Shown: in pieces, positions 4,663-35,272 of the stretch
How positions within the stretch are numbered: the first letter of the stretch is position 1
How the letters are laid out: every line of letters starts with the position of its first letter
Assembly: GCA_026706025.1 (NCBI GenBank)
Contig: JAPOZO010000006.1
Coordinates: forward strand, 1 to 36,287
Direction of reading: 5' to 3'
From: Candidatus Poribacteria bacterium
Lineage (GTDB): Bacteria > Poribacteria > WGA-4E > WGA-3G
Length of the DNA stretch: 36,287 bases
Program-made: the position numbers and the translations under genes
The notes under the pieces: model-generated
What the model was told of the DNA's origin: nothing
Seen by the model: only the letters and a program-made list of their open reading frames with translations
Databases searched by the model: none

Positions 4663-6501
4663 ATGAACACAGAGCAACAGGAAAAGGCGACCCCAGAATT
4701 GTGGCAATCTCTTCCGAATGTGCCCGGGGTTTATCTCATGAAAGCCTCCGATGGCAGTGTCATCTATGTCGGAAAGGCGATCCGTTTGCGAACGCGCGTG
4801 CGCTCCTATTTTCGCGAAAAGTCTGCACATGCACTCACCTCACAGATGATGCGGTATGTTACTGAAGTTGATTATATCGTTACAGAGACGGAAGTAGAGG
4901 CGTTGATTTTAGAGAATAACCTGATTAAAGCGCATCAACCCCGCTACAACGTAAAACTGAAAGACGATAAACGCTACCCGTATCTGCGCGTAACCACGGA
5001 TGAACCTTTTCCGCGCATCCATATCACCCGTAAAGCCGAGAACGACGGAACACGATATTTCGGTCCATTTGTTCATGTACGTTCAACACGTCAGGTACTG
5101 AAGCAGTTGACAAAGTTCTTTCCTATTCGGACCTGTACCTTACCGCTCACAGAGAGGAAAAATAAGTATCGGGTCTGTTTAGATTATCACATCGGACGCT
5201 GCCCGGGGCCTTGTGCAGATAAGATGAGTGTTGCAGATTACGACGAGATCGTTCGGAAGGTGTGTCAGTTCTTGAGTGGGAATACAGACGCTGTTGTTAA
5301 GGAATTGACGGAACAGATGGAAGCCGCGGCGGAGGCACTCGATTTTGAGACTGCTGCGAAGTATCGCGATACGCTTAAAGACGTTCAACAGGTGATTACA
5401 ACACAGAACATGGATAGTGTTTCCGCAGCCGATGAAGATGTCATCGGCATTGCGGCACAGCCTGATATTGCATGTGTGCAGCTGCTCCGGGTTCGAGATG
5501 GTAAACTGCTTGAACGTGAACACTACTACCTCAACGATGCCGATCCTGAAGTGCTTGCGACGGCGTTAAGTGCGTTCATTTCGCAGTATTATCAAAACGC
5601 GGTTTTCGTGCCAAAAACGGTTGTCTTGCCGATGCCGATTGCGTCCGTAGAACTGATAGAAAACTGGCTTAGTGAGAAGCGTGGAAGCCGTGTCGGATTA
5701 AGTGTGCCGAAAGCCGGTAGACTCAGGAAATTACAAACTTTGGCATCGAAAAATGCTGAGATTCTGTTGACGCAGCGGGAGCAAAATGTGGTTTATAGCA
5801 GTGGTGTGGAGCCTGCGCTTGTTGAACTACAGGAGCTGCTGGGTCTAAAACACCCGCTCAGACGGATTGAGGCGTATGATATTTCCAATCTCGGTGATCG
5901 GTTCGCCGTCGGTTCAATGGTGGTCTTGGTGGATGGAAAACCGGCTTCAAGTGAGTACCGCCGATTCAAGATTCGCTCGGTTGAAGGGCAGAACGATTAC
6001 GCAATGATGCAAGAGGTGATCACTCGCCGCTTCCGCCGTGCCCTCGCGGACGATGAAAAATTCAATCAACTCCCAGACCTGATGTTAATTGATGGTGGGA
6101 AGGGGCAATTGAGTGCGGCACAGGCAGCTATGAAAGCGTTTGCTTCGTCCGATCTTCCTGAGATTCCGATGATCGCACTTGCGAAGCGGATTGAGGAGAT
6201 TTTCGTGCCGGGGACATCGGAACCGGTTGTGTTGCGAGAAGATAATCCGACTTTACACATGATCCAACGATTGCGCGATGAAGCGCATCGGTTTGCGATT
6301 ACGTATCATCGGCGGCTCCGGCAGAAGTCGCTGAGTGCGTCTGTGCTTGACGAGATTCCGAACCTCGGTCCGAAACGGAAACAGGCACTGCTTCAACATT
6401 TCGGTTCTATTGAGGCGATCCGAGCGGCGAGTTTAGACGGGTTGCTCTCTGTGAAAGGCATCCCCCGCAGTGTTGCCGAAAATATTCGGAAGCATCTCTG
6501 A
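4663..6501 (+). CDS. uvrC: Excinuclease ABC subunit UvrC
   Basis: UvrC makes the dual incision in nucleotide excision repair after UvrA and UvrB load at a lesion. All family modules are present in its 612 residues. The GIY-YIG nuclease comes first (GVYLM at 22-26, VIYVGKA at 33-39) and makes the 3' cut. A UVR domain that binds UvrB is at about 209-243. The RNase H-like nuclease for the 5' cut is at about 400-540, with AYDISN near 405 and LIDGGKGQ near 475 supplying the catalytic aspartates. A C-terminal helix-hairpin-helix pair runs from about 565 to 612 (IPNLGPKRKQALLQHFGS, then SVKGIPRSVAE). The length matches typical UvrC. AGGAG at 4651-4655, seven bases before the ATG, fixes the start. 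A hairpin terminator follows. Confidence 0.97.
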   Translation: MNTEQQEKATPELWQSLPNVPGVYLMKASDGSVIYVGKAIRLRTRVRSYFREKSAHALTSQMMRYVTEVDYIVTETEVEALILENNLIKAHQPRYNVKLKDDKRYPYLRVTTDEPFPRIHITRKAENDGTRYFGPFVHVRSTRQVLKQLTKFFPIRTCTLPLTERKNKYRVCLDYHIGRCPGPCADKMSVADYDEIVRKVCQFLSGNTDAVVKELTEQMEAAAEALDFETAAKYRDTLKDVQQVITTQNMDSVSAADEDVIGIAAQPDIACVQLLRVRDGKLLEREHYYLNDADPEVLATALSAFISQYYQNAVFVPKTVVLPMPIASVELIENWLSEKRGSRVGLSVPKAGRLRKLQTLASKNAEILLTQREQNVVYSSGVEPALVELQELLGLKHPLRRIEAYDISNLGDRFAVGSMVVLVDGKPASSEYRRFKIRSVEGQNDYAMMQEVITRRFRRALADDEKFNQLPDLMLIDGGKGQLSAAQAAMKAFASSDLPEIPMIALAKRIEEIFVPGTSEPVVLREDNPTLHMIQRLRDEAHRFAITYHRRLRQKSLSASVLDEIPNLGPKRKQALLQHFGSIEAIRAASLDGLLSVKGIPRSVAENIRKHL

Positions 6502-6565
6502 CAGCTGCGTGCTGTATCAATCTTACGAACTTCTCTGCACGGATTTGGGCAATTTTCTGTTAGTG

Positions 6566-6587
6566 CTGCACCGATTGGTGCAGTTTT
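6566..6587 (+). terminator. Rho-independent terminator after uvrC
   Basis: The arm CTGCACC (6566-6572), loop GATT and complementary arm GGTGCAG (6577-6583) form a perfect 7-bp GC-rich stem followed directly by TTTT. It is 65 bases after the uvrC stop and before the next promoter. The T-run is short, so it may be only partly efficient. Confidence 0.55.
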
Positions 6588-6622
6588 AACGCCCGGATTG
6601 GCGATCTGTAGTGTTTCTGGAT

Positions 6623-6638
6623 TGGCATATTATTTGCA
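6623..6638 (+). promoter_or_regulatory. Sigma-54-like (-24/-12) promoter
   Basis: TGGCATATTATTTGCA matches the RpoN consensus TGGCAyr-N4-TTGCA. The invariant GG (6624-6625) and GC (6636-6637) are exactly ten bases apart. It sits about 70 bases before the Uma2-family start and just after the uvrC terminator. No activator gene or upstream activator site was recognised, so the call rests on the core match alone. Confidence 0.4.
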
Positions 6639-6706
6639 ATGACAGCCTTGCGATTTGATTCGCAAATTTTTGCACTTTTGAGAGGACAAGAACAGTGGAG
6701 GCACAC

Positions 6707-7282
6707 ATGTCAACGCCTATAGCACAGACATATCTGACACCAACAGAATATCTTAATTGGGAACGCAAGGCGGTTACGAAACATGAATATCTGGGTGGAG
6801 AGATAGTCGCGATGTCGGGCGCGAGCAACGCTCACAATATCATTACGATGAATACAGCAAATCAACTTTATAACCAATTGGTGGACGAGGATTGCCTCGT
6901 CTATGCCAGCGATATGCGCGTTCGGGTGCACGCGCCCGTCTCCTACTTCTACCCAGATATTGCAGTCGTCTGTGGGGAACCACGTTTTGAAGATGATGTT
7001 TTTGATACACTTCTTAACCCGACTGTCGTGGTAGAAGTCCTGTCGCCTTCGACTGCAGCATACGATCGGCGCGAGAAGTTTACACGTTATCAACAGATTG
7101 CATCGCTGAAAGAGTACATCCTTATTTCGCAAAACCGAATACACTTGGAGCATCATCTCCGACAAGAAAACCAGTGGTCTGCAACTGAATTTCACAAACT
7201 TGAGGATGTAGTGCCTGTCACTTCAATTGAATGTGAGCTCCTTTTGGGTCATGTTTATAGGCGTGTCACATTTTCGGACTGA
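6707..7282 (+). CDS. Uma2 family endonuclease (DUF820, PD-(D/E)XK fold)
   Basis: The 191-residue product is a typical Uma2/DUF820 protein. The N-terminus LTPTEYLNWE then KHEYLGGEIVAMSGAS is followed by HNIITMNTANQL, the core YPDIAVVCG (catalytic-type D) and VVVEVLSPSTAAYDRREKFTRYQ (E plus the downstream helix). These families have a restriction-endonuclease-like fold and are abundant in cyanobacteria and Poribacteria. Their cellular role is not settled. The ATG at 6707 has GGAGG at 6697-6701, five bases upstream. An in-frame GTG at 6695 would add four residues and has AGAGGA upstream, so it is a possible alternative. The next gene begins 14 bases after the stop, suggesting co-transcription. 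Confidence 0.85.
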   Translation: MSTPIAQTYLTPTEYLNWERKAVTKHEYLGGEIVAMSGASNAHNIITMNTANQLYNQLVDEDCLVYASDMRVRVHAPVSYFYPDIAVVCGEPRFEDDVFDTLLNPTVVVEVLSPSTAAYDRREKFTRYQQIASLKEYILISQNRIHLEHHLRQENQWSATEFHKLEDVVPVTSIECELLLGHVYRRVTFSD

Positions 7283-26134: not shown

Positions 26135-26370
26135 TTTTTCGTCCTTCGTGTTGATTTCAAAGCGTATTATACGGTGTGAATTCTTAATTGTCAACATTTG
26201 ATTGCTGACAACTGAATGCCTCTGCGGGACCAATAAAAAATTTGATATTTTAGGTTAAATATGTTATCATATATATTGTAGTAACGACTTTTTTCAAGAG
26301 CATCTAAACCAACAGAATTGCCTCCAAAATTAACTTAAAGTTAACATGAAAAAATAGGAACAAATTGGAT

Positions 26371-26765
26371 TTCATGAACAATTCAAAAAAGAATCAATCT
26401 TATCAAGTGCCGTTATCCCTTGTATCCATTAGGTTTATAGCACTTCGGGGTGGAACTCGGTAAAAAAAATATTGCCCAATTGTTCATGAAAATTCCGAAA
26501 ATCCAAAATTATGGATACCCACGAACCTACATAACCAGTGGCATAAAAGCCCCTCAAATTCGCAAAAGAAGATCATGAACAATTTCGTGAACAATCGTGA
26601 ACATTTTCGGATAAAGCGGCATCGTGGCATAGACAAATTATCGAACAAACACACTGGCTGCGTAAGTTTAGAATCTAAATCTCCGCAGAGGGAAAAAATG
26701 AACATATAGTGCATGTTCATGATTGTTCATGGAATTTTATGGAATGTTCACGAAATGTTCATAAA
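26371..26765. repeat. Cluster of about ten TGTTCA-type motifs in the divergent intergenic region
   Basis: The 771-base gap between the minus-strand unit and the restriction-modification gene holds repeated TGTTCAyGA words. Plus-orientation copies start at 26481, 26714, 26724, 26745 and 26756. Reverse-orientation copies (TCrTGAACA or ATGAACA) are near 26372, 26573, 26585, 26595 and 26698. Most are followed by AAATT or ATTTT. The right end is a close series of four motifs in about 50 bases. No gene is evident in 26135-26905. The arrangement resembles iterons or a multi-site operator. Confidence 0.7.
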
Positions 26766-26905
26766 ATCCCCAGATTTTACGCCTAAAAATCAAGGATACC
26801 GGGCAGTCGAAAAAAGTTAACATTTAGGTAATTATCACTATGGGTGTTTCACCTGATGCCGTTTCTGGCAATTGAAAACTGAGTACTGAAAACTAACAAC
26901 TAATC

Positions 26906-29900
26906 ATGCCAGATATCAACATCAAAACGACTCACAAACCTATCCAAGAATACTATACCGAACTCGAAAAATATGTGCAACTCGGTGCGGAAAATGAAGG
27001 CACCGTCCGCACCGCATTCCAAAACTTGCTCCAGCATTACTGCCACCGCTCCAACCTTACACTCCTCTGTGAAAAGACGCTTTCTTTCCCACCTGATAAG
27101 GGGGACCAGGGGGGTTACAGACGCATCCGACCCGACGGTGAAGTTGTTGATGCGTTCGGTTTACCACACGGCTACTGGGAAGCCAAAGATACCCAAGACA
27201 ACCTGTACGTTGAAGCGGACAAGAAGTTCGCTGCAGGCTACCCCTCGAAAAATATCGTCATCCAGTCTCCGACCCACGCACTCCTCTATCAACACGGACA
27301 ACTGCAGCTCGATCTTGACATCACTGAACCAAGAAACCTCGTCCATGTCTTGCAGACCTTCTTCACCTATCAGGAGGAGAATATCTCCGCATGGCATACA
27401 GCAGTCTCTGACTTCAAAGACACGGTGCCGGAACTCGGTGACAAATTGGCGGCACTCATCGAAATAGAACGCCAAAACAACCCACATTTTCAGGAAGCGT
27501 TCACCCGTTTTCATCAACAGTGTCAAGCCTCGATTAATCCGAACTTGTCCGTTGCTGCCATAGAGGAGATGCTCATCCAGCATCTGTTGACAGAACGCAT
27601 TTTCCGCACGGTCTTTGATAACCCCGACTTTACCCGCCGAAATATTATCGCCCGTGAAATTGAGAATGTTATTGACGTGCTTACCGAGCGGACACTCAAC
27701 CGCTCTGAATTTCTCCGTCCATTAGAGCCGTTCTATGCTGCGATCGAACAGACTGCCGGTACGATTACCGACTTCTCGCAGAAACAGGGGTTCCTCAACA
27801 CTGTCTACGAGCAGTTTTTTCAAGGCTTCTCCGTCAAAGTCGCTGATACGCACGGCATTGTCTACACACCGCAACCGATCGTCGATTTCATGGTGAAAAG
27901 CGTTGCGCATATCTTACAGACCGAGTTTGATCGTTCACTTTCGGATAGTGGCGTACATATCATCGACCCATTCGTCGGCACTGGTAACTTCATCGTCCGC
28001 ATTATGCAGGAGCTTGATCCCATTTCACTGGAACAAAAATACACCGCCGACCCGCCGGAACTCCAGTGTAACGAGGTGATGCTCCTACCCTACTACATTG
28101 CCAGTATGAACATCGAGCAAGAGTTCTACACCGCAACGCACCGCTATCTACCCTACGAAGGTATCTGTCTCGTGGATACGTTTGAGATGATAGAGACCCA
28201 ACAGATGCAGCTCCTCACGCCTGCGAACACGGCACGCGTCGAAAAGCAGAAAGAGACCGATATGTTCGTCGTCATCGGCAACCCACCTTACAATGCATGG
28301 CAGGTTAATGAGAACGACAACAACAAAAACCGGAAGTATAAGACAATGGACCAGCGGATTGCCGACACCTACGCAAAAGATTCTAAAGCAACGCTCAAAA
28401 ACGCACTCTACGATCCGTATGTCAAGGCGATTCGGTGGGCATCTGATAGAATAGGTGAGGATGGCGTTGTGGCTTTTGTGACAAATAATGGTTTTCTCGA
28501 CGGTGTAGCGTTCGATGGAATGCGGAAACGTCTTGCAGAAGAATTTGACACTATCTACATTTTGGATCTGGGGGGTAATGTTCGTAAGAATCCGAAACTG
28601 TCAGGGACGACACACAATGTGTTTGGAATTCAGGTTGGAGTGAGTATCAATTTTTTCATCAAAAAGGCTGACAACACAAATTCGCAAACGCAAATTTTCT
28701 ACGCTTGTGTCGATGAATTCTGGCGCAAGGAAGATAAGTATGACCACCTTAATTCAAAACAACATTACCAGAATATTGAATGGGAGCAAATAACACCTGA
28801 CAAACGAGATACATGGCTCACCGAAGGTCTCCATGCTGAATTTGAAGCCTTTATTCCGATGGGAACTAAGCAAGAAAAAGCGGTCAAAGGCGTGGCAGCG
28901 GATGTTATTTTCAAAACCTATAGTCGCGGTGTTACCACAAGCCGTGATGCATGGGCGTACAATTTTGCTCAAAACACACTCGCTGAAAACATGGACAGGA
29001 TGATTGAAACCTACAATGAGGAAGTGTCCAAGTGGGAACGACGAAAAAATCGAGACGCAGAAGTTGATGATTTTATAATTTCTGATGACAGAAAAATTAA
29101 GTGGACCGACAGACTAAAACAGGAATTAAAAAATGGAAAAATGACTGATTTTTCCCATGAAAAGATCAGAATATCTTTCTATCGCCCGTTCACAAAATCA
29201 AACCTTTACTTTGATAGGTTGATGAATCAGAGGGTTTATGTATTTCCTTCTATCTTTCCTATACCGAAAACTGAAGAGGAGAATCGAATAATTTGTGTCA
29301 ACGGAATTGGAAGTAGTAAATCTTTTCAGACTTTAATGGCGAAATTGATTCCTTCCCTTGATATACTCGAAAAAACCCAATGTTTCCCCTTTTACATCTA
29401 CGACGAGGACGGCACAAACCGACGCGAAAACATCACCGATTGGGCATTAGCACAGTTCCGCAGGCATTACGAAGACGACACTATCACCAAATGGGACATC
29501 TTCCACTACAACTATGGACTCCTGCATCATCCTGAATATCGCGAGAAATACGAAGCCAACCTCAAACGCGACCTGCCACATATCCCTTATGCCAAAGACT
29601 TCTGGGGATTTGCGAAAGCAGGCGCGCACCTCGCGGATAGCCATGTCACCTACGAATCCCAACCCGAATACGATAAACTCAAGTTCGTCCAAACGCCAGA
29701 TGTGCCGCTCGATTGGCGTGTCGAGAAGATGAAACTCTCCAAAGACAAAACCGCGCTCATCTACAACGACTTCCTGACGTTATCGGGCATCCCTCCAAAG
29801 GTTTTTGATTATCGGCTTGGCACCCGTTCCGCGTTGGAATGGGTGATAGATCAATATCGCATCAAAACAGACAAACGCAGCGGCATCGTCAACGACCCGA

Positions 29901-30007
29901 ACCGCACAGACGACCCGCAGTACATCGTGAAGTTGGTTGGGAAGGTGATTACAGTGAGCTTGGAGACCGTGGATATTGTTGAAAACTTACCTGAATTAAG
30001 TTTCTGA
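26906..30007 (+). CDS. Single-chain type ISP/IIG-like restriction-modification enzyme (nuclease-N6-adenine methyltransferase-specificity)
   Basis: The 1033-residue enzyme has a nuclease-type core near the N-terminus (RPD77, then W91-E92-A93-K94, a PD-(D/E)XK pattern). A helical connector leads to a gamma-class N6-adenine methyltransferase with motif I DPFVGTGNF (354-362) and motif IV NPPYN (459-463). The C-terminal type ISP specificity domain includes FWGFAKAG, LTLSGIPPKVFDYRLGTRSALEWVIDQY and TDKRSGIVNDPNR. One chain should therefore methylate and cut DNA in a sequence-specific way. It lacks the helicase of LlaGI-type ISP enzymes (about 1570 residues), so it is closer to type IIG. Residues 61-71 (FPPDKGDQGGY) look like a repeat inserted in frame. 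No clear ribosome site precedes the ATG. The target site is unknown. Confidence 0.85.
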   Translation: MPDINIKTTHKPIQEYYTELEKYVQLGAENEGTVRTAFQNLLQHYCHRSNLTLLCEKTLSFPPDKGDQGGYRRIRPDGEVVDAFGLPHGYWEAKDTQDNLYVEADKKFAAGYPSKNIVIQSPTHALLYQHGQLQLDLDITEPRNLVHVLQTFFTYQEENISAWHTAVSDFKDTVPELGDKLAALIEIERQNNPHFQEAFTRFHQQCQASINPNLSVAAIEEMLIQHLLTERIFRTVFDNPDFTRRNIIAREIENVIDVLTERTLNRSEFLRPLEPFYAAIEQTAGTITDFSQKQGFLNTVYEQFFQGFSVKVADTHGIVYTPQPIVDFMVKSVAHILQTEFDRSLSDSGVHIIDPFVGTGNFIVRIMQELDPISLEQKYTADPPELQCNEVMLLPYYIASMNIEQEFYTATHRYLPYEGICLVDTFEMIETQQMQLLTPANTARVEKQKETDMFVVIGNPPYNAWQVNENDNNKNRKYKTMDQRIADTYAKDSKATLKNALYDPYVKAIRWASDRIGEDGVVAFVTNNGFLDGVAFDGMRKRLAEEFDTIYILDLGGNVRKNPKLSGTTHNVFGIQVGVSINFFIKKADNTNSQTQIFYACVDEFWRKEDKYDHLNSKQHYQNIEWEQITPDKRDTWLTEGLHAEFEAFIPMGTKQEKAVKGVAADVIFKTYSRGVTTSRDAWAYNFAQNTLAENMDRMIETYNEEVSKWERRKNRDAEVDDFIISDDRKIKWTDRLKQELKNGKMTDFSHEKIRISFYRPFTKSNLYFDRLMNQRVYVFPSIFPIPKTEEENRIICVNGIGSSKSFQTLMAKLIPSLDILEKTQCFPFYIYDEDGTNRRENITDWALAQFRRHYEDDTITKWDIFHYNYGLLHHPEYREKYEANLKRDLPHIPYAKDFWGFAKAGAHLADSHVTYESQPEYDKLKFVQTPDVPLDWRVEKMKLSKDKTALIYNDFLTLSGIPPKVFDYRLGTRSALEWVIDQYRIKTDKRSGIVNDPNRTDDPQYIVKLVGKVITVSLETVDIVENLPELSF
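27086..27118 (+). repeat. Repeat-derived in-frame insertion inside the restriction-modification gene
   Basis: The stretch CCACCTGATAAGGGGGACC (from 27089) followed by AGGGGGGTT is a G-run palindromic word typical of dispersed intergenic repeats, yet here it is read in frame as FPPDKGDQGGY. It sits just before the RIRPDG nuclease motif. Recognition as a repeat is from memory of similar sequences in other genomes, not from a search. Confidence 0.45.
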
Positions 30008-30646: not shown

Positions 30647-33600
30647 ATGAATTTAAAAAAATCTCAAGATAGAATTGGAAAATTAATGTTAAGGTTTATA
30701 GATGAAATTAGGGTTGCGACAGCAATGGGTAAAAGGGATATCAATTGTGTATCTGAAAATGTATTAATTCAATTATTTTCCGAAATCTATGAACATACAG
30801 ATTTAAAAAATTTAAATGTGTCCGAGGGGTCTAATTTTCCCGCAATAGATTTAGGCGATAAAAAAACGAGAACAGCTTACCAAATTACATCAACGCCTAG
30901 TTCTGAAAAGGTCAAACGGACTTTAGAAAAATTTGTTGCTCGTGAACTATATAAAGAATACGACCGTCTTGTCATCTACATCTTGACAGAAAAACAAAGC
31001 AGATATCAATCAAAAAAAATTGATGAAATCATAAATGGCAAATTCACTTTTGACAAGAAAAATGACATACTTGATTATAGCGACTTACTGAAAGAAATTT
31101 CAGGGTTTTCTCTGGAAAAGACGCGCAGAGTAGAGCATATACTTGAGCAACATTTCGGTGAAGGGCAGACGGGTGACGAACCGCAGGATATATTGGATTG
31201 GTTAGAACAGGTTAATAATTTATGGGGCTGGGAATCGGGAGCGATAAAAATTAATCGAGAGGAATTACGCAACGGGTTATTGAACTTTGCCTCCCGAGGG
31301 AACGGGGTCGTTATCGGAAGTCCCGGCGTAGGAAAAACCTTCTTACTGAAAGAACTCCACCAATATTTAAAATCCAACGAAATACCACATCTTCTACTAC
31401 CTATTGACCGACTCGGGAATGGCACTCCCGAAGATTTGGAGAATGGATTATCATACAAAGGTAATCTGATTGAGAGGTTGAAATCCGTTCCTGTTTCAGA
31501 CAAGAAAGCAATTTTACTGTTTGATGCCTTTGATGCTGCTCGGGATGAACAAACACGCAAATGCTTTTTAAGCTTGATTCAACAGGCAATTCATAAACTC
31601 AGCGAGTCATGGAATATAATCGTTACAGTAAGAACCTATGATGCAACGAAATCTCAAGAACTTTTAGATTTGTTCGGTAATCTTGATGAGGCAGATCTAA
31701 CTCAATATCAGAGCGAAGACATTCCATGTCGCCATTTCACAATTCCACCGTTCAATAAGAACGAGATATTACAAGCGTTAAGTCAAATTGGATGCCCGAA
31801 ATCTGTTTACGACGATGGTTCTGACGACTTTAAGAAGATCCTTGCAAAGCCGTTTAATCTTTGGTTATTGGAAAAGATTCTAAGCACTTTACCGGACAAG
31901 GATATTCGCAGAACTTTTAGTAAGGTTCGTTCTGAAGTCCAATTACTTGATTTATTTTGGTCCCGACGAATAGAGGCTGCAGACAATGAAAATGACCGTT
32001 TATCTGTTCTTGAAGAAATCGCACTCGAGATGGTTGAACAGTGCTCCTTGAGCATTAGGCAGATCAATGTTCGTAAGACTCTAATCCAGACAGCATGGAA
32101 TGATCTCCTGAGTGATGAAATCTTAACTAAGGTATCTTCGACGGGAAAACGGGTTGCCTTTTCTCACAACATTCTCTTTGATTACGCAATTAGCGTCCTA
32201 CTCATTGATGATGAGCCTCAGCACCTTGAAAATTTTATCCTTGAAGATCCATCGCGCCCTCTCTTTCTCCGACCAAGTCTTACCTACTTTTTCACCCGCC
32301 TCTGGTACTATAAGGACTCCGCAAGTTTCTGGCGTGCCTTCTGGCATATTTTGCAAAGAGATCAATCTGTACCTTTGCGTCTCGTCGCACACTTGGTTCC
32401 CACAAGTGTCATCGCAAATGAAGCACATGATATTGACCAACTGACACCACCGTTAGAAAAATTACAAAGCACGAACGAGACCGCAAACAAGGCAATAATG
32501 TGGCTTTTGCAGTCGCTCCGGACGCTCCAAATTGAGAGTGACACACTTTGGATCGATTTTTTCGACCAAATTTCACTACATCTGCACAGTGACTTTGCTT
32601 GGGATTTAGCAACTCTTACTTCGGATATTCTCGAGCGTGCAAGGGATGAAAATGTCAAAGATACTTGTGGACGGATTGGTCGGCGACTACTTGAATGGGT
32701 ATGGCAGGAAAAAGAAACAAACGAAAGCGATTGGTATGATCGATTTGGTAGTTATGGTGCGGTACCACTTGTTGCCAAAACATATCACACAAATATTGAA
32801 GAATCCCGTGCACTCCTTGAAAAAGTTCTTGAGCTGCTACCGAGGGACAATTTCCCAATAGACTTTCCATCAAGACTGACCGAGCATGTTGACAAAATTT
32901 GGGCTCATGATCCTGAGTTTGTTGCCTCGGTCTATAGAGCAGTATTTACCCACTATGAGATCAGCGATGAGGAGATACATCGGGGTGGATTCATTTTACC
33001 ATTTAGAAGTTTTCGCAGGCAAGATTATAGGATGTGCCAATATCGGTTGGTAAAGCATCTCCCCAATTTCCTTTGCGCAGCACCATCAACCACGGTGGAA
33101 GCAGTAATTCGTAGTCTGAATAACTTCATTATCCACACACGTATAGACAAACCACTTGAGGGTCTCATAGAGACGTTTAATTTTCGAGGAGAACTTGCTA
33201 GCTTTGTGCAGGACGGTAGTCATATATGGGATCGACAGAAAGCTCCACCTGAACCAATTAAACTTGCGAATGCCTTGTTTGACTACATAGTAGAATTGGC
33301 AAAGTTAGAAGATCCGCTTTTTGATTCAATTCTTGATATTTTTCGTGATGAGGTGCAGATTGCGTTTTTCTGGAAACGGCTTTTGAAGATAGCATCACAG
33401 TTTCCCAAGGTTTTCGCGCCACGCCTTTTTGAGTTGTGCATCGCTAAACCGATACAGTTGCATTTTGAAGTTTCTTATGAATTGGGTCTGTTTTTGAAAG
33501 CTGCTGCATCTGAGTTCACACAGGACAAACTTCTTCAGATCGAAGAAAGTATCTTAGCGATTCCTGAAGAAACAGAAGATAATCAAGAATCTCTTAAACT

Positions 33601-35272
33601 GCGGAGAAATCGTCTTCTTGCACAAATTCCCGCAGATTTGCTACTTACAGATAAGGCAAAGGAAATTCGAGAAGACATGGAACGTGAAAATAGCGTTCCA
33701 GTGAATCGACCTCCAGTGAGTGTTAGTGTCACATCTCAACCTTTTACCGAGGAAATGTGGTTTCAAGAACAAGGAGTTGACACGACTACACCTGAAAATC
33801 AAGAATTACGACGCTTTTTTGAATCTCTTGATAAATTCAGTTCTGATTGGCGAAATGATGCCCCAACTCAGGAAGCCACTCGATTAATTTTACCGCGGTT
33901 ACAAGAAGCACACGCCATCCTAAAAAGTAATACGAGAGCCGATCAAAAGGTAATTGATTCGCTATGGCGTAAACTAACCGATTGTATCGCAATTCTTGGT
34001 CGAGTTGCTAAGAATCTTGAAAGTGAATCGTTTACTTTTTGCCGACAAGTGCTTTTAGCTGGAGCAGAACATGAACAGCCCAAACCAAACCCCATATACG
34101 ATGAGCAATTTGATTATCCAGGTTATTCCCCATATCCACGACATGATGCTGCCCGTGGGTTACTCCGGCTAGCGTCTCACCAACCTGATAGAGAAATATT
34201 AGACGCTATTGAGGTACTTGCGAGGGATCCTGTACCATCTGTTTGCATGGAGATAGCAATGGAGTTGCCCATGATTTACGTCAAAGCGCCAGAAAGATTC
34301 TGGCACATTATGGACAAAATGGCAACTCATGAAGAGAATTGTGTTGTTCAAGAATGCCTCTACGGCACGTTGGATTGGATCGTCACAGGAGAAAATGAAG
34401 ACAAGATAACTCACATCATAGCGAAGTTACTTGAGCACACACCATCCCCTCCAAGCCCAAGAGTGTTAGGCACATCGGATCCATTTATTGATTTGTTGAT
34501 GTGGTTGGCAATTGACCGTGAAAATTCGTGGGCATTAGAAGTAATCGAAGACACATTTTTCAAAGACCCAATTCGGTTCACTAATATCCTAACCCGTCTT
34601 GTGTCTCAAGTCGTGGAGGATTACGTTGTACCGAATCACCTTAAAACGCCTGACGGACGCAAGAGAATAAAACGGGCCACTAAATGTGTAAGTAAAGCTA
34701 TTACTACAGCTACTGATGGGATTGCAAAATTGTGCGTCACGCCCAAGGAGCAAAGGACTGAGGAAGTAGGAAAACAGTTACAGAACCTCTACGAGGTAAT
34801 TGATGAGGTTATCACGAGGCTTTACTTTGGGGTTGCCCACAAAAGAGACCAGTCTGAAGAACCTGTCAAGGAAATCTCCCGCAAGTTGCGCTGCGACTAC
34901 TACAATGAAGTCAAGCCGTTGATGAAACAGGTTATTGCCTTTGCACAAGATCCAAAAAGTGGTGCGATGTTTGCACCGACAGCGCACTATTTCATGCAAC
35001 TTTTAAAGAGTTTCCTCGGCTGCAATCCAAAAGAGGTTTTGCATTTAGCAACGGGGGTCGTAAAATCAAGTGAACCGTTCGGTTATAATCTCGATTCCAT
35101 TGCGGTTCATGATGTAGTTGAATTCGTTGAAATTGTGCTTGCTGATTACCGGCATGAAGTGCGCGATGGCGAGGCTTTGGAAGACCTCCTACAGCTGTTA
35201 GATCTTTTTGCCAAAATAGGTTGGTCGGATGCCCTTAAACTCGTTTGGCGACTTGATGAGGTTTTCCGTTAA
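30647..35272 (+). CDS. SMEK-like/STAND P-loop NTPase, predicted antiviral conflict protein
   Basis: This 1541-residue protein begins with a domain of about 170 residues ([50 protein letters not shown]) that resembles the bacterial SMEK domain found at the N-terminus of conflict proteins; its D...YQIT pattern suggests a degenerate nuclease-like core. A P-loop NTPase follows with Walker A GSPGVGKT (224-231), Walker B [10 protein letters not shown] (288-297) and a VTVRTYD sensor segment. A winged-helix-like part lies near residues 455-520, and about 1000 residues of helical repeats extend to the C-terminus. This order (effector, STAND NTPase, solenoid sensor) is that of NLR-like and Avs-type phage-defence proteins. 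GAGGTG eight bases upstream supports the start. The first 450 bases are visibly richer in A and T. The trigger and effector action are unknown. Confidence 0.72.
   Translation: [1541 protein letters not shown]

Follow-up and report, generated by a model that had tools for sequence, protein, structure and literature searches.

What function is served by a cluster of ten TGTTCA words in a single intergenic region, and where did such a cluster come from? The question is raised by a locus in the window, i.e., the whole stretch of 36,287 nucleotides of Poribacteria DNA analyzed here, whose preliminary description proposed either cooperative binding of a regulator or an iteron-like replication site.

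The TGTTCA cluster and its surrounding element

The location of the cluster in a divergent intergenic region is borne out, and so is the count of about ten words: TGTTCA occurs ten times in 395 bp, five times on each strand, and the positions of the last four words (26714, 26724, 26745, and 26756) and their spacings of 10, 21, and 11 bases are exact. The longer form TGTTCAyGA stands only in part, since exact TGTTCAYGA is present in seven of the ten words and a version with one mismatch in two, and the word at 26699 goes no further than TGTTCA.

The cluster is real and far above chance. In 2000 dinucleotide shuffles of these 395 bases, TGTTCA never occurred ten times (maximum 4, mean 0.42), all other 395-bp stretches of the window contain at most three, and no 6-mer of the region is more frequent than TGAACA/TGTTCA. 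Pairs of TGTTCAYGA within 30 bp occur at only three places in the 6.27-Mb genome, on contigs C6 (the window), C31, and C93, and the reversed-pattern control for such paired words gave none in the whole genome. All three clusters lie in copies of a single intergenic element. As a lone word, TGTTCATGA likewise outnumbers its reversed control over the genome, 83 to 29; as to the array, the possibility that the word is equally common elsewhere did not hold.

The limits first drawn for the cluster, 26371-26765, turned out to be too narrow, and the conserved unit spans 26239-26834 on the plus strand, where it is matched by positions 1-585 of the nhmmer model. Copies were located by iterative nhmmer; 43 were collected and the 41 full ones aligned, with the partial copies L090 and L065 left out. 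Since homology between copies at unrelated loci mostly stops about 10 bases or less from the left edge and near the right one, the element is a discrete unit of about 600 bp. Some copies of subfamily C (see below) have a further 37-87 bp in common on the right. A short MITE-like sequence with the ends GGACTTACGCA and TACGTAAGTCC was seen by eye to adjoin the right edges of subfamily C copies, as well as several of the palindromes described below (in L237 upstream of position 950).

The left end of the element in the window is promoter-like and of the sigma-70 type by sequence: TTGATA-17-TATCAT (26242-26270, plus strand), with TG before the second hexamer as in an extended -10, is conserved in the copies. 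A scan of the region counted promoter-like sites at a level not above that of shuffles. The left palindrome TTAAC/GTTAA (26330-26345), also conserved in the alignment, is followed by TGTTCA site 1 (26375-26380, minus strand), which is exact at the aligned place in 40 of the 41 copies, and by site 2 (26481-26486, plus strand), present in all 41. Next comes an AACC-N-CAGTGG box (26524-26541, plus strand), by eye akin to AACCC-N-ACTGGGTT in the leaders of terminase-like paralogues. Sites 3-5 (26576-26603, minus strand) begin at 26576, 26588, and 26598 with spacings of 12 and 10, and are kept in 40, 41, and 41 copies. Site 6 (26699-26704, minus strand) is the weakest, with 26 copies, and sites 7-10 (26714-26761, plus strand) are found in 25 (13 gapped), 34 (five gapped), 40, and 40. 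The element ends with a palindrome-like GTTAAC-N-GGTAA (26816-26832), recognized from the sequence, the alignment, and the flanks; its place is just 5' of the ribosome-binding site in those copies that precede a terminase-like gene.

A type ISP/type IIG restriction-modification (RM) gene (26906-30007, plus strand) begins 72 nt past the element; its protein has the Pfam domains Type_ISP_C, ISP_coupler, and N6_Mtase and is classified as type IIG by PADLOC. Directly before its start codon (26865-26905) lies GAAAACTGAGTACTGAAAACTAACAACT, which matches dozens of places in the genome. On the other side of the element, at 26166-26194, the minus strand carries a 12/12 sigma-70 consensus (TTGACA-17-TATAAT) facing the ASRT-side ORFs. 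After the RM gene, 30647-35272 encodes a SMEK-domain protein with NACHT/nSTAND-type matches and a PADLOC PDC-M54A assignment, a candidate defence gene.

The element has a narrow distribution. Matches, many of them to the promoter end only, were found in 33 of the 60 relatives searched, all in its own genus, and none of the 24 genomes from outside the genus gave a match at E 0.01. An exact core TGTTCAYGAAATGTTC was found in 18 of the 38 genomes of the genus, with six occurrences in the complete genome G005; single exact 16-mers also occur in G060 and G079, which belong to other genera. Over a collection of genomes from 84,980 species, a two-part pattern of the array retrieved 33 stretches, all titled Poribacteria. 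A phage origin of the array was considered and rejected, as the same pattern gave no stretch in viral contigs and the element has no match in the pieces of the phage-like contig G018:C3. We recognized no description of the element, or of a chromosomal regulator resembling a small terminase in Poribacteria, among the papers listed by searches of the open-access (PMC) literature.

Conservation of the sites and genes behind the copies

Invariant columns over the 41 copies number 42 of 60 in the cores and 12 of 268 in the linkers. The same contrast is seen between copies at one locus. The window copy and L064, solo copies before the same RM gene, differ at none of 55 core positions but at 53 of 267 in the linkers (p=3e-5); the corresponding figures are 0/55 and 49/265 for the window copy and L072, and 0/55 and 43/260 for L010 and L062, both before the same DUF6785 gene. 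With frozen cores next to changing linkers at one locus, solo copies seem to be maintained rather than just passed on.

The long linkers, poorly conserved in sequence, hold their length (106 bp in 34 of 41 copies, 95 in 35, and 101 in 33); the distance from the left edge to the left palindrome is variable, 99 to 182 bp. Several size variants differ by 9-11 bp, some of them in 10-bp direct repeats, where slippage is an equally possible cause. The suggestion of helical-turn spacing survives for the short spacings, which are near whole turns, but phasing over the whole array is weak (p=0.02 against random positions, and 0.76 when only the long linkers are jittered).

These features bear on the two functions proposed at the outset. 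An iteron-like replication or partition site, for which the repeated short words at near-helical spacing could speak, is nearly out of the question and was dropped as an origin, given that up to six exact cores lie dispersed over one complete chromosome (G005) with unrelated flanks and that no initiator-like gene was found beside the copies among the neighbouring proteins scanned. Of the general readings, a regulator that would bind at many of the sites has the best support, given the frozen cores, the fixed spacings, and the slight RNA covariation.

When the solo loci are merged by hand into 23 distinct ones, 20 of them have the next ORF downstream in the same orientation as the promoter (p=0.0005, computed without a background rate of codirectionality). 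The genes behind solo copies include type ISP RM, FRG (two), Schlafen-type, DUF1156 methyltransferase, and PDDEXK_3 genes, and further leuS, PhyH (two), a gene for an Oxidored_q6 protein, Hen1, and DUF6785. DUF6785-type genes are numerous in the genus, with 21-33 matches per genome.

The cluster is not tied to RM genes. In a comparison of 30 RM loci among the matches listed, 29 of them with upstream sequence, a full copy precedes only four homologous genes (in G000, G002, G027, and G015, the last cut by a contig end), and a site specific for RM genes is ruled out by the other gene types downstream of copies. At four more of these 29 loci, among the matches listed, the promoter end is present without the array: directly upstream in L295 and L307, by string match and eye in L290, and about 310 bp upstream in L301. 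The promoter part can therefore persist alone, which fits a promoter function. In the remaining 21 of the 29 loci listed neither the element nor its promoter end was detected at E 0.01, and many have by eye a different promoter-like sequence. Among the matches listed, the element precedes the gene found behind it on C31 at three of 30 loci and leuS at one of 30, and the leuS comparison yielded no precise empty site, the intergenic sequence being too diverged. Homologues of the RM N-terminus are widespread, occurring in 63 of 72 genomes of the order with up to 15 matches in one.

The linked terminase-like gene and its paralogues

A tree of the copies separates subfamily A (12 copies, including that of the window), 12 terminase-linked copies, and subfamily C (16 dispersed copies on short branches), with L078 apart; a single clade of linked copies is not supported, because three label changes are needed on the tree. 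The 12 linked copies precede an ORF of 246-268 aa, mostly at a distance of 6-21 nt (in L077 the ORF starts 280 nt on). Copies of subfamily A, that of the window included, never adjoin this gene.

By its sequence, the linked ORF resembles a phage small-terminase-like (TerS-like, DUF2280-like) protein. DUF2280 was matched below its curated cut-off in all four homologues scanned (E from 0.094 to 0.00013), and all 14 members examined matched phrog_546, a family with no function given, with E values up to 1 (best 8.3e-5); a TerS or DUF2280 profile match above cut-off was not obtained for the linked ORF. On contig G018:C3, a homologue of 32% identity overlaps a gene with matches to terminase large subunit models. 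This contig (L219, L220) is 80 kb long with redundant ends and is apparently a Poribacterium phage of about 67 kb with a terminase-like gene pair. The structure model of the linked ORF, of moderate confidence, is helical, with pLDDT 83-90 for residues 11-90 and 64.5 overall, and gave no significant fold match in Foldseek. At L011, where the linked ORF of C93 lies at 6123-6863 on the minus strand, a large terminase gene is absent beside it, and genes for DUF1573, a 375-aa protein without Pfam match, and SecA follow.

Among the 38 genus genomes, 16 have strong homologues of the ORF, those in G010 and G024 being truncated or partial. Of the 38, 11 have both solo copies and the gene, five have solo copies only, five the gene only, and 17 neither (p=0.008, with kinship ignored). 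Two solo copies lie in the complete genome G021, whose terminase-like gene is only a remote one. A profile search extended the terminase-like matches to 25 of the 38 genus genomes, and 22 loci around such matches were examined.

The leaders of these remote paralogues have, by eye, the same kind of promoter in eight of ten cases. Most of the paralogues also have a perfect palindrome beside the ribosome-binding site, the sequence of which varies by paralogue: ATGTTACAC..GTGTAACAT, ATGTTA..TAACAT, GTTACC..GGTAAC, GATACC..GGTATC, or TTTCCTAC..GTAGGAAA. Such a palindrome lies near the start codon in 21 of 25 matches outside the linked family (L246 being counted with a corrected start); it is displaced by an insert in L237 and absent in four: two fragments (L241 and the second L244 piece), L254, and the phage-like L219 homologue. 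As a scale for comparison, among the 234 ORFs of 200 aa or more at the loci inspected, terminase-like genes included, 21 have a palindrome with 9-bp arms no more than 130 nt upstream. By eye, the palindrome class tracks the protein class around the presumed recognition helix, a match that may reflect shared descent. A palindrome, AATGTTACACNNGTGTAACATT, occurs with at most one mismatch at about 304 places in 34 of the 38 genus genomes, against none for the reversed control, and in 30 loci with such copies (e.g., L257-L286) most are not beside a terminase-like gene. In G070, which belongs to another genus, an 815-aa ORF that by eye resembles a Cas3 helicase precedes a terminase-like paralogue (L221, 4263-7544).

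Possible functions and known systems

We propose that the cluster is the operator array of a promoter-operator cassette of about 600 bp, which would be the 5' leader of the TerS-like gene dispersed in solo form before other genes; we consider this account evenly balanced between right and wrong. On the best reading of the sequences, the cassette would reach from the promoter of a chromosomal TerS-like gene almost to its ribosome-binding site, and the product of this gene is best read as a domesticated autoregulator. RNA polymerase would start at the left-end promoter, and a TerS-like oligomer with many helix-turn-helix domains would bind several TGTTCA sites in both orientations and loop or wrap the leader DNA, so that transcription of its own gene would be damped, as would that of the genes behind solo copies. 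In the window, the left-end promoter would drive the type ISP RM gene. That the TerS-like protein binds the sites, that it represses, and that this promoter serves the RM gene is what we infer. In favour of the account are the near-constant site positions in the 41 full copies, the frozen cores of solo copies, the linkage of 12 copies to the TerS-like ORF, the class-specific palindromes of its paralogues, the codirectional downstream ORFs, the promoter ends left at RM loci, and the co-occurrence of solo copies with the gene. Against it stand G021, where the terminase-like gene is remote, subfamily A, which never adjoins the gene, the sub-threshold DUF2280 matches and the empty fold search, the scan count of promoter-like sites, and the slight repeat preference of the SF6 domain described below. 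A promoter with operators is in itself ordinary; the unusual aspect is that a terminase-type leader is dispersed and kept intact before other genes.

It is possible, if unlikely, that a different host regulator or a nucleoid protein binds the array and that the terminase-like link of one subfamily is incidental. Subfamily A without a terminase-like gene beside it would then be expected, as would the five genomes, one of them complete (G021), that have solo copies without a close homologue of the ORF. The common layout of the linked and paralogue leaders, with class-specific palindromes at the ribosome-binding site, and the co-occurrence of solo copies with the gene (p=0.008) argue for the TerS-like protein instead.

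We find it quite unlikely that the element acts as a structured leader RNA of about 550 nt, or as a small RNA, in which the inverted TGTTCA/TGAACA words pair in the transcript. Single sequences do fold better than shuffles (z -2.72, -2.50, and -2.04), which is as expected from inverted repeats, and the paralogue palindromes before the ribosome-binding site could be RNA hairpins. Yet RNAalifold retained pairing through changes on both sides in only one of 30 pairs, with a covariation term of -0.51. For two named helices the measures are divided: three of five are reached by hardly any shuffle (3/500, 1/500, and 4/500), but the other two are not above shuffles (344/500 and 134/500), and these shuffles ignore kinship. 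Moreover, the long linkers hold their length, which is needless for a loop, and the leader has no terminator-like site. A known RNA family was rejected, as no Rfam match was obtained in the window at gathering scores.

A non-autonomous, MITE-like mobile repeat without a regulatory role, the sites of which would be transposase-binding sites or their remnants, could account for the discrete edges, the dispersal of copies with unrelated flanks, and the group of recent copies on short branches. We consider it very unlikely in view of the frozen cores between which linkers change at one locus and of the codirectional downstream genes at 20 of 23 loci; neither a transposase nor a target duplication was identified at the copies.

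Little credence is given to a more far-reaching proposal, by which the TerS-like proteins and their arrays would be chromosomal packaging systems, each class with its own dispersed pac-like sites, that mobilise host loci by directed transduction. Each TerS class would steer the large terminase of a phage or a gene-transfer agent to host loci, some with defence-type genes, and the differing paralogue palindromes would be a set of addresses. In layout, the linked copies, which mostly end 6-21 nt before the TerS-like ORF, agree with a pac site, where repeats span the promoter and the start of terS; the solo copies, including that of the window, do not.

If our account of a dispersed TerS-like leader is true, a family of phage packaging-recognition proteins has been domesticated in an uncultured phylum of sponge symbionts, its paralogues each keeping their own operator, and an operator-promoter leader that spreads as a cassette can bring restriction genes and others under shared control. 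The evolution of helix-turn-helix specificity could then be tested on a natural set of paralogues whose recognition helices and palindromes are matched.

Several known systems share part of this organization. Mobile promoters of bacteria are promoter-bearing intergenic units repeated before different genes, mostly in the same direction as those genes. The element, too, is a promoter-bearing unit that stands before different genes and mostly in one direction; in contrast to mobile promoters, its conserved operator array is large, and its origin can be traced to the leader of one particular regulator-like gene. REPIN and similar repeats are dispersed short intergenic units with inverted repeats, and the element is likewise dispersed, intergenic, and provided with inverted repeats, but it is much longer, has a promoter and about ten fixed sites, and is present in few copies per genome. 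Phage-inducible chromosomal islands such as SaPI have a chromosomal TerS with a pac site, resembling the TerS-like protein encoded on the chromosome here and its putative cognate site, but neither an island nor genes for an integrase or capsid modification were seen next to the TerS-like gene.

The closest parallel to the linked leaders is in phages SPP1 and SF6 (PMC4737164). The pac site of SPP1 covers promoters together with the beginning of the small terminase gene, and operon transcription is downregulated by the complex of terminase and pac; DNA has been proposed to wrap round a ring of helix-turn-helix domains about one turn apart, and the DNA-binding domain of SF6 TerS showed little sequence preference for the pac repeats (PMC4737164). 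The linked leader is likewise a repeat region that spans a promoter and ends at a terS-like start. The Poribacteria gene differs in being chromosomal and without a large terminase beside it (at L011), and the Poribacteria words are more numerous and more strictly conserved, with solo copies preceding unrelated genes.
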